Source: Achromobacter xylosoxidans
GTDB lineage: Bacteria; Pseudomonadota; Gammaproteobacteria; Burkholderiales; Burkholderiaceae_B
DNA length: 64,000 nucleotides
Reading direction: 5' to 3'
Assembly (NCBI RefSeq): GCF_001457475.1
Contig: NZ_LN831029.1
Coordinates: forward strand, 4,898,001 to 4,962,000
Below the pieces are notes generated by a model, which had not been told where the DNA came from, ran no database searches, and saw only the letters and a list, made by a program, of their open reading frames with translations. Below, one piece after another: positions 29,932 through 31,684 of this stretch (position 1 is its first letter; every line of letters begins with the position of its first letter). The position numbers and the translations under genes were made by a program.

Positions 29932-30486
29932 ATGAGCACCTACAAGATCGCCGTCTTCGTCGGCAGCCTGCGCGCCGCATCGATCAACCTGCGCCTGGCG
30001 CGCGCGCTGGAAAAACTGGTTCCCGCGGACTTCAAGTTCGACTACGTCAGCCTGGGCGACGTGCCGCTGTATAACCAGGACAACGAAAACAACCTGCCCG
30101 CGCCCGCGGCCAAGCTCAAGCAGCAGATCCTCGACGCCCAGGGCATTCTGTTCGTCTCGCCCGAGCACAACCGCTCGGTGCCCGCCGCCATCAAGAACGC
30201 GATCGACTGGGGCACCCGCCCGTGGGGCCAGAACTCATGGGCCGGCAAGGCCGTGGGCATCCTCGGCGCCTCGCCCAGCGCCGCCGGCACCGCGCTCATG
30301 CAGCAGCACCTGCGCAACATCCTGGCCGCCGAAGGCGCCATCGCGCTGACCACGCCGGAAGTCTTCCTGCAATACACCGATGGCCTGATCGACGACCAGT
30401 ACACCATCACCAACGAGGGCACGCGCAAGTTCCTGCAAGGCTGGATCGACCGCTACGTCGACTGGATCAAGAAGTTCAATCCCTGA
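29932..30486 (+). CDS. NAD(P)H-dependent FMN reductase (flavodoxin-like fold)
   Basis: 184 residues. The FMN-phosphate loop GSLRAASINLRLARAL lies near the N-terminus, and the conserved SPEHNRSVPAAIKNAIDW follows at about residues 77-95, as in chromate/quinone reductases (ChrR/YieF type). Cytoplasmic flavoenzyme that reduces quinones or metals using NAD(P)H. It stands alone and ends in a strong terminator. Confidence 0.92.
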   Translation: MSTYKIAVFVGSLRAASINLRLARALEKLVPADFKFDYVSLGDVPLYNQDNENNLPAPAAKLKQQILDAQGILFVSPEHNRSVPAAIKNAIDWGTRPWGQNSWAGKAVGILGASPSAAGTALMQQHLRNILAAEGAIALTTPEVFLQYTDGLIDDQYTITNEGTRKFLQGWIDRYVDWIKKFNP

Positions 30487-30528
30487 TTGCCGCCGATGCC
30501 GGGCCAGGGCGCCTCCCCACCCGGCACC

Positions 30529-30554
30529 GATCGCCCGCCTACCTCCGGGCGATC
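30529..30554. repeat. Perfect inverted repeat after the FMN reductase
   Basis: GATCGCCCG and CGGGCGATC arms with an eight-base loop, just upstream of the terminator hairpin. Confidence 0.7.
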
Positions 30555-30556
30555 AC

Positions 30557-30585
30557 GCCCCCCGCCAAGCCGGGGGGCTTTTTTT
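30557..30585 (+). terminator. Terminator of the FMN reductase gene
   Basis: GCCCCCC, loop of seven to eight bases, GGGGGGC, then seven T. It marks the left end of a 980-bp stretch (30487-31465) in which I see no credible gene; its contents are listed as separate features. Confidence 0.9.
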
Positions 30586-30593
30586 GTGGATAA
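30585..30593 (-). promoter_or_regulatory. Perfect DnaA box
   Basis: TGTGGATAA, the complement of TTATCCACA, directly after the terminator T run. Outlying member of the DnaA-box-like cluster to the right. Confidence 0.6.
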
Positions 30594-30643
30594 AGCGGCC
30601 CCGCTCCGAAAAACAGTTCCCTTCGCCGCCCCTGGGAAGGCAG

Positions 30644-30725
30644 CCCCCCCCGCCACCAACACGCCGCCCCGTGCGCGCGCCCCCCCGCCCCTTCGCGCGC
30701 CCCCTTCGCCCACCAACACCGCCCC
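30644..30725. repeat. C-rich tract, possible G-quadruplex on the minus strand
   Basis: Six runs of four to eight C separated by short spacers, plus a direct repeat around CCACCAACAC (30653 and 30711). The opposite strand has enough G runs for quadruplex formation. Confidence 0.5.
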
Positions 30726-30734
30726 AAAAAAAAA

Positions 30735-30818
30735 GCCGCCCGGCCGCCCGGCCGCCCGAAGGCCGGGCAGCCCCCTCGGGGGGCAGCAAGCGCACGCAGT
30801 GCGCGCCGCGTGGGGGCC
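30735..30818. repeat. REP-like GC-rich palindromic element
   Basis: Tandem GGCCGCCC units followed by nested hairpins (CCCCCT/CGGGGG type, and GCGCAC-GCA-GTGCGC at 30790-30804). Sequences of this look are, from memory, dispersed in Bordetella/Achromobacter intergenic regions; copy number could not be checked. Confidence 0.5.
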
Positions 30819-30819
30819 C

Positions 30820-30915
30820 ACATATCCCCGCCAACTGTGGAGAAGCTTGAGGACAGCTGTGGGGCAGGTACGAAAAAGCCTGACGTGCCAAGCACTTGCA
30901 GGCACCGGTCAAAAA
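30820..30915 (+). repeat. DnaA-box-like ~96-bp repeat, copy 1
   Basis: First of four copies that align without gaps. Contains TGTGGAGAA (DnaA box, one mismatch) then TGAGGACAG and TGTGGGGCAG in 11-bp steps, a short A run, CAAGCACTTGCAGG and CGGTCAAAAA at the end. Confidence 0.7.
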
Positions 30916-30951
30916 CTGCGCAATCCATCGTTTGGCCGATTCCTGGCGCAC

Positions 30952-30960
30952 TTATCCACC
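30952..30960 (+). promoter_or_regulatory. DnaA-box-like 9-mer between repeat copies 1 and 2
   Basis: TTATCCACC, one mismatch to TTATCCACA, in the opposite orientation to the boxes in the repeats. Confidence 0.45.
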
Positions 30961-31011
30961 GTCCAAAGGGCGATTGCGGGACGCCCGCGGACGCTTCGCA
31001 TCGACCGGTGC

Positions 31012-31107
31012 ATTTGTCCCAGCATTCTGTGGACAAGCATGAGGACAGGATGAGGGCAGCTCGGCTTTTCCCTTGCACATCAAGCACCTGCAAGGGGTGG
31101 TCAAGAA
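31012..31107 (+). repeat. DnaA-box-like ~96-bp repeat, copy 2
   Basis: TTGTCC and GGACAA form an inverted pair eleven bases apart at its left. The box TGTGGACAA is followed by ATGAGGACAG and ATGAGGGCAG in exact 11-bp phase, then CAAGCACCTGCAAGG and TGGTCAAGAA. Confidence 0.75.
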
Positions 31108-31135
31108 AGGCCCAGACGCACTCGCCCAGGCGCCA

Positions 31136-31231
31136 GGTTGTCCCCGGGAAATGTGGATAAGGCTGAGGACAGCCTGCGGGCAGCCGCAAAAATCCCTTTA
31201 CCGCCAAGGCCTTGCGCCAGGCGGGCAATAA
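31136..31231 (+). repeat. DnaA-box-like ~96-bp repeat, copy 3
   Basis: Carries a perfect DnaA box TGTGGATAA (31152-31160), opposite TTGTCCCCG, followed by CTGAGGACAG and CTGCGGGCAG in 11-bp phase. The right part is the most diverged copy (CAAGGCCTTGCGCC). Confidence 0.75.
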
Positions 31232-31298
31232 ACGCTCAGGCGCCGTGCTCCGGCCGCGCCAGCTACGTGATGCGCCGCGCCCGCCCGCCCCTTCTCGC

Positions 31299-31394
31299 AT
31301 TTGTCCCCACCGGATGTGGACAAACCTCTGAACAGTCTCATGACAAGCCGAAAAAAATCTTATCCGACAAGCACTTGCAAGGACCGCTCAAAAA
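31299..31394 (+). repeat. DnaA-box-like ~96-bp repeat, copy 4
   Basis: TTGTCCCCA and TGTGGACAA form an inverted box pair. The 11-bp direct repeats are degenerate (CTCTGAACAG, CTCATGACAAG), and a further TTATCCGAC lies at 31360. The right part CAAGCACTTGCAAGG and CGCTCAAAAA is well kept. The dodecin gene ends 72 bases further on. Confidence 0.75.
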
Positions 31395-31465
31395 AGGAGC
31401 AGCGCCGCAGACGCGTCGCGCCCGCCGCGTGAATGCCGGGCGCTCGCCATCGCGCGTCGGCGGCG

Positions 31466-31684
31466 CTAGACGTCGCCATCCTCCAGCCGCATGCCGATCT
31501 TCAGGCCGACCTGCCAGTGCGCCACCTTGCCGTCCTTGATGTGGCCGCGCACCTCGGTGACCTCGAACCAATCCAGGTGGCGCAGCGTTTCGGATGCGCG
31601 CTCGATGGCCTTGCTGATCGCATCGTCGGTGGACTTGGTGGACGAGCCCACCAGTTCGATCTGCTTGTAGACATGATTCGACAT
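31466..31684 (-). CDS. Dodecin, flavin-binding protein
   Basis: 72 residues matching the dodecin family across its full length (VYKQIELVGSSTKSTDDAI ... GHIKDGKVAHWQVGLKIGMRLE). Dodecins assemble into hollow dodecamers that store or buffer FMN/FAD or coenzyme A. A strong AAAGGAG site precedes the ATG at 31684. It diverges from the DUF6496 gene and is single. Confidence 0.94.
   Translation of the reverse strand: MSNHVYKQIELVGSSTKSTDDAISKAIERASETLRHLDWFEVTEVRGHIKDGKVAHWQVGLKIGMRLEDGDV

Follow-up and report, generated by a model that had tools for sequence, protein, structure and literature searches.

The Achromobacter window studied here, a 64-kb stretch of DNA at positions 4,898,001-4,962,000 of the 6.81-Mb chromosome contig, probably carries four compact DnaA-reactivating sequences (DARS) in tandem. 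They would be of the DARS2 type, which depends on IHF and Fis, and by analogy with Escherichia coli would promote nucleotide exchange on DnaA. The arrangement suggests that the Achromobacter lineage has multiplied a control switch for recharging DnaA. All four units lie within a 979-bp gap (30487-31465), and the FMN reductase and dodecin genes on either side converge on it, so the units are not the promoter region of either gene. The initial annotation had described a gap-free repeat of about 96 bp with units starting at 30820, 31012, 31136 and 31299. The starts and the gap-free alignment were confirmed, but each unit extends to about register position 102 and measures about 103 bp. Features of the locus are given below, with scores from R1, a sequence-only model of the unit that was built from 12 of the 30 fetched congeneric loci and gives rough E-values.

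29932-30486, forward strand: NADPH-dependent FMN reductase gene (PF03358), flanking the array and converging on it; outside the element
30585-30593, reverse strand: isolated perfect DnaA box lying directly after a terminator-like run 3' of the FMN reductase gene and not belonging to the conserved array
30820-30921, forward strand: unit 1 (R1 81.9 bits; IHF core 0 mismatches, Fis 0 mismatches), with box I 30822-30830, box II 30836-30844 (reverse), box III 30848-30856 (reverse), weak fourth box 30859-30867, IHF consensus 30886-30898 and Fis consensus 30907-30921
30952-30960, forward strand: additional DnaA box TTATCCACC, in the spacer separating units 1 and 2; mean top-base frequency in the genus 0.86
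31012-31113, forward strand: unit 2 (R1 81.8 bits; IHF core 1 mismatch, Fis 1 mismatch), with box I 31014-31022, box II 31028-31036, box III 31040-31048, fourth box 31051-31059, IHF consensus 31078-31090 and Fis consensus 31099-31113
31136-31237, forward strand: unit 3 (R1 82.6 bits; IHF core 0 mismatches, Fis 1 mismatch), with box I 31138-31146, perfect box II 31152-31160, box III 31164-31172, fourth box 31175-31183, IHF consensus 31202-31214 and Fis consensus 31223-31237
31299-31400, forward strand: unit 4 (R1 74.9 bits; IHF core 0 mismatches, Fis 1 mismatch), with box I 31301-31309, box II 31315-31323, box III 31327-31335, fourth box 31338-31346, IHF consensus 31365-31377 and Fis consensus 31386-31400
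31466-31684, reverse strand: dodecin gene (PF07311), flanking the array and converging on it; outside the element

In the common register, box I (columns 3-11) is followed by a 5-bp spacer, box II (17-25, reverse), a 3-bp spacer, box III (29-37, reverse), a weak box (40-48), an A/T tract (54-57), the IHF consensus (67-79) and the Fis consensus (88-102). Box I is opposite to boxes II and III in all four units, with boxes I and II head-to-head. The 9-mers had been described as following one another in exact 11-bp steps; the first step, from TGTGGANAA, is 12 bp owing to the 3-bp spacer, and only the next is 11 bp. The two perfect DnaA boxes already noted at 30585 and 31152 are the sole matches to TTATNCACA in the window, where 0.21 are expected and 2 of 100 shuffles reach two, and the near-match at 30952 proved to be conserved in the genus. 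Between units 1 and 2 (30921-30960), several of 15 congeneric sequences contain a dyad, ATCATCC..GGATGAT, followed by a T run and the DnaA box; this dyad is eroded in the window's own sequence.

The units are read as DARS-type because the orientation and spacing of their boxes equal those of both E. coli DARS, and because IHF and Fis consensuses are present. DARS1 of E. coli K-12 reads TTATCCACT-ATTCC-TGTGGATAA-CCA-TGTGTATTA and the DARS2 core reads TTATTCACC-TTTTC-TGTGGATAG-AGT-TGTGAAGAA, each with spacers of 5 and 3 bp. The published accounts describe equal spacing at both DARS with box I opposite to II and III (PMC5742627) and treat this opposition as a DARS feature (PMC10380432). Deletion primers given in PMC4585315 place the DARS2 core at L076 2636-2670. 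A 5-bp pair near mutH (L076 2951-2975), ranked first by R1 (E=0.016), was rejected as the DARS2 core since the primers point to the former position. Over 40 kb comprising the E. coli DARS1, DARS2 and datA regions and the oriC and dnaA regions of the Achromobacter genome, R1 ranks the DARS1 core second of 35 (E=0.068). The true DARS2 core scores poorly (3.8 bits, E=2.4), which counts against the DARS reading. The 5/3 geometry is not in itself unique: at loose thresholds, which unit 2 of the window does not pass at box I, it has two matches in 340 kb of the Achromobacter genome.

Copy number is low. With R1, the 6.8-Mb genome has eight units at E<1e-4, at three loci, and the next match has E=0.07.

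Locus A: the window array, four units
Locus B (L140, G000:C1:4792099-4793244): unit pair at 4,792,099 and 4,793,148, about 1 kb apart
Locus C (L139, G000:C1:1899162-1902967): unit pair at 1,899,162 and 1,902,868, about 3.7 kb apart

An ordinary repeat family of many dispersed copies, which the initial annotation had considered, was rejected on this count. The copy-number search of the genus that it proposed found units in all 43 genomes, with seven to nine per genome and three and five in two incomplete assemblies. By DNA search the array locus is present in 37 of 37 genus genomes (in G028 in part only) and in none of 24 genomes of other families. At 80 loci, some of them overlapping, tblastn matched the FMN reductase in 38 and dodecin in 41, including all 30 congeneric loci. 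Units occur in 146 of 268 genomes and 32 of 43 genera of the family, where arrays reach seven units. Across the order there are matches in 48 of 399 genomes (27 of 158 genera); 42 of the 48 are outside the family, and 37 of these have a single match. These three scans used stricter filters that lose weak matches, and only 92, 14 and 9 candidates per genome were scored for genus, family and order, respectively. The 28 family genomes examined for arrays were chosen as having matched in the family scan, and the other-family units come from 20 of the 42 matching genomes outside the family, picked mostly for long matches.

Within the genus, the units are conserved. In 29 of the 30 congeneric loci (L030, trimmed short, was used for unit 4 only), units 2-4 measure 105 bp throughout and the unit 1 stretch is 101 bp in 27 and 102 bp in two. 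Mean top-base frequency is 0.83-0.89 in the units versus 0.50-0.68 in the spacers between them; within units it is highest in boxes I, II and III (0.92-1.00) and reaches 0.74-0.97 in the A/T tract, IHF and Fis segments. Both the low copy number and the contrast between conserved units and diverged spacers count for the DARS-type reading. Units at the same place in different species are on average 82% identical (1653 pairs) versus 63% for units at different places within one species (174 pairs), which indicates that the array is old and that each unit has been kept separately. Constant unit length and conserved blocks would also suit a repeated structured RNA or regulatory transcript, as the initial annotation had suggested, but we regard this as scarcely credible: the flanking genes are convergent, Rfam has no match in the window at gathering scores, and the consensus fold of 48 sequences (-0.74 kcal/mol) has four predicted pairs, none with a compensatory change. 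With neither a known family nor a covarying pair found, a structured RNA was rejected.

Judged by letters matching the eight of TTATNCACA, boxes I, II and III score (5,7,5), (4,7,5), (5,8,5) and (6,7,5) in the four window units, and (7,8,7) in DARS1 and (7,7,7) in DARS2 of E. coli. Boxes I and III are weak in the window array and box III is weak family-wide, both of which count against the DARS reading. Since box III is weak throughout the family, and boxes I and III of the array deviate from the DnaA consensus much alike across aligned species, the TTGTCC..GGACAA dyads could be sites of some other dimeric DNA-binding protein unrelated to DnaA. We consider this very unlikely in view of the rest of the family and beyond. 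All 59 family units have a box II with 7 or more of the 8 letters, whereas 6 or more are reached by box I in 54 and by box III in three; in the fixed register the box I pattern fits 57 and the box II pattern 52. At loci B and C, box I has 7-8 of 8 letters. Among 20 other-family units, boxes I, II and III reach 6 or more letters in 20, 18 and 17, respectively, and 16 have all three good boxes in the same frame; one of the other four, L173, shows merely a one-base register shift. Units of other Burkholderiales families read, for example, TTATCCCCA-AAACC-TGTGGATAA-GTC-TGTGAATCG or CTTTCCACA-AAACC-TGTGGATAA-CTT-TGTGGGAAA. Given these stronger boxes inside and outside the family, the weak ones in the window have the look of DnaA boxes that have drifted. 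At locus C, box I reads TTACCCACA in both units, and a terminator-like hairpin follows one of the two.

Beyond the core, each window unit has a predicted IHF site and, beyond that, a predicted Fis site, both at the level of consensus matches. The consensuses used, CAANNNNTTR for IHF and GNNYANNNNNTRNNC for Fis, are those given in PMC4585315 and PMC8682772. The same 59 family units, which come from 15 genomes and 10 genera and exclude the four of the window, fit the IHF core with at most one mismatch at a fixed column in 48 cases (1000 shuffles: mean 0.5, maximum 5) and the Fis consensus in 45 (shuffle mean 0.9, maximum 5). Both fit together in 41 units, against a maximum of one in 1000 shuffles; each fit was taken at the best of all offsets tried. 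High-information columns in the right half of the units include C70, A71, T77 and T78 of the IHF consensus and G88, Y91, A92 and C102 of the Fis consensus. T98 of the Fis consensus is weakly kept, while A93 and A103 are common although they are no part of that consensus. Outside the family, IHF fits 7 and Fis 9 of 20 units (shuffle means 0.18 and 0.28, maximum 2), counted in exact register and leaving out relaxed-offset fits, which have no shuffle control. These fewer fits count against the DARS reading, as does the bias carried by the unit sets, since R1 was built from Achromobacter units with the IHF and Fis columns included.

The genome encodes both predicted partners, which counts for the DARS-type reading. 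Fis has 79 aa (HTH_8) and its gene adjoins dusB, as in E. coli. IHF-alpha is 68% identical to its E. coli counterpart and is preceded by what we read from the ORF as pheT; there are three more HU/IHF-like matches. A PF00308 search of the genome returned DnaA and a second match, in what we read from the ORF as an IstB-like transposition gene, so no Hda-like protein was found among its matches.

The order of parts in the units, core followed by IHF and then Fis sites, is that described for the IBS and FBS of E. coli DARS2 (PMC4245941). The DARS2 locus, in the rppH-mutH intergenic region, shares with the array the opposed box I, the 5- and 3-bp spacers, a non-coding setting and a location away from oriC. 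Unlike DARS2, a 455-bp element with one core, the Achromobacter units are about 100 bp long, carry one IHF and one Fis consensus each and are repeated four times; boxes I and III are weaker, and a weak fourth box is added. With the E. coli sites placed by consensus, core and IHF site are 29 bp apart versus about 58 bp in DARS2, a shortening by 29 bp or slightly less than three helical turns, and the IHF-to-Fis gap is 8 bp versus about 23-39 bp. The distances are thus not those of E. coli but shorter, although fixed among the units, and these differences count against the DARS reading. Moving the IHF sites of DARS2 by 5 or 10 bp reportedly reduced activity to varying degrees (PMC4245941). DARS1, in the bioD-uvrB intergenic region, has identical core orientation and spacers and is 101 bp long (PMC5742627), and unlike the four-unit array it is a single unit. 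In our scan, nothing in the bioD-uvrB gap fits the IHF consensus with one mismatch or fewer, and nothing close to the DARS1 core fits that of Fis.

Dense DnaA boxes combined with IHF consensuses are also reminiscent of E. coli datA, which has DnaA boxes and an IHF site. The array might therefore mainly sequester DnaA or, with IHF, promote ATP-DnaA hydrolysis, and so lower free active DnaA. The joint loss of datA, DARS1 and DARS2 in slowly growing E. coli lowers bound DnaA according to PMC12371093, so DARS sites may titrate as well. A mainly titrating or datA-like role nevertheless seems unlikely to us. As described in the literature, datA and initiation complexes have mainly head-to-tail DnaA contacts (PMC5742627), and datA is near oriC and hydrolyses ATP on DnaA (PMC10380432, PMC5742627); in the array, boxes I and II are head-to-head with DARS spacing rather than head-to-tail around one IHF site, and the locus is past mid-arm. 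The units also carry a Fis consensus, whereas the datA descriptions used mention no Fis site.

We place oriC upstream of and adjoining mnmG, at about 6.783-6.785 Mb, by DnaA boxes together with sites that we take to be parS-like. Array A is 1.853 Mb and locus B 1.990 Mb from oriC, both on the left arm, and locus C is 1.930 Mb away on the right arm; dnaA is 1.88 Mb from the array. Of 8 stretches sampled for GC skew at 0.3-3.0 Mb, 7 are positive and one, at 1.5 Mb, is negative; all 9 sampled at 3.3-6.3 Mb are negative, as are the window and the stretch at 6.776 Mb. Near the contig ends the skew is discordant, being positive at 6.800 Mb and negative at 0 Mb (3 kb). The sampled skew broadly agrees with an oriC beside mnmG, and no skew switch was seen in it near the locus. 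A displaced or relict origin, another option of the initial annotation, would explain a DnaA-box cluster with an IHF-like consensus, but we hold it to be highly improbable and rejected it on the position of oriC beside mnmG, the distant dnaA and the lack of a nearby skew switch in the samples. Neither mnmG nor dnaA neighbours the array, and boxes I and II are head-to-head, as opposed to head-to-tail at oriC (PMC10380432). The DARS-like reactivation that the initial annotation listed beside the displaced origin and the regulatory RNA has good support: box orientation and spacing, the two protein-site consensuses and the small number of copies all favour it.

In all 14 near-closed genus genomes, the distance of array A from oriC is 0.54-0.76 of the half chromosome, also in G016 and G021, where the array is on the other arm; this position counts for the DARS-type reading. 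The terminus was taken as the half chromosome, and one guessed dif pattern had no match in 158 loci. Tandem arrays of other genera were placed in 14 genomes: in 10 of these they are at 0.50-0.70, and in the remaining ones at 0.22 (G127), 0.31 (G085), 0.48 and 0.50 (G082) and 0.82 (G088). Where other genera have single or paired units, the positions range over 0.33-0.98, which argues against a strict position rule and counts against the DARS reading. The survey left out the weak or partial matches G018:267120, G017:2720971, G081:3628513 and G088:627878 and seven of the 28 family genomes, and the lengths of 13 of its 35 genomes are rounded values. For E. coli, we computed 0.41 for DARS2 and 0.66 for DARS1 using an assumed oriC coordinate. 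The relative distances of these loci to oriC are described as conserved in E. coli (PMC4585315).

Dodecin or FMN reductase neighbours are common to the arrays of seven genomes from three other genera, so the position is partly inherited synteny, and this too counts against the DARS reading. Orientation relative to the fork is identical in 14 of 14 genus arrays, and 13 of the 14 genomes from elsewhere that have tandem arrays share it. The unit pair on the other arm of the Achromobacter genome has opposite polarity, and we therefore ascribe the uniform orientation to inheritance. At G106:C1:1320838-1322753, the mnmG match falls into two frames and contains a stop, which may reflect a broken gene or a sequencing error.

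If the array acts as its E. coli counterparts do, ADP-DnaA would assemble on boxes I-III, and bending by IHF together with Fis would alter the head-to-head DnaA pair so that ADP leaves. The released apo-DnaA would then bind ATP, and the level of ATP-DnaA would rise before oriC, 1.85 Mb away, initiates again. Eight units on both arms could provide a high reactivating capacity, with dosage falling with distance from oriC. As a more speculative proposal, which we think somewhat less likely to be right than wrong, the family may have built a multi-unit DnaA recharging station, in which arrays of up to seven units and single or paired units jointly set the rise in ATP-DnaA, cooperatively or by dosage. 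Unit number and distance from oriC would then be an evolved dial for initiation timing, replacing the two single DARS of E. coli.

DARS as a kind are known, and their presence in beta-proteobacteria is already hinted at: DARS-like sequences are reported in many proteobacteria (PMC10380432), DARS2 is mentioned for beta- and gamma-proteobacteria (PMC5742627), and the DARS2 core and Fis are tied to gamma-proteobacteria (PMC4245941). In the literature on DARS or DnaA boxes in beta-proteobacteria, Bordetella, Burkholderia, Burkholderiales and Achromobacter, searched largely without subscription journals, we found no report of tandem DARS, of arrays of up to seven units or of DARS in the family of Achromobacter. 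In the studies found, DARS were dissected in E. coli and compared among close gamma-proteobacteria, and each locus had a single core. The present units fit the DARS2 layout into about 100 bp, and in a single family they form a natural series of one to seven copies per locus. Comparisons along such a series could address how much reactivation capacity is needed, which of the spacing rules are essential and how position on the chromosome tunes the timing of initiation. In G220, G215 and G217 of genus g55, several matches end after the DnaA-box part (about model positions 2-55); these are possibly core-only, DARS1-like sites.
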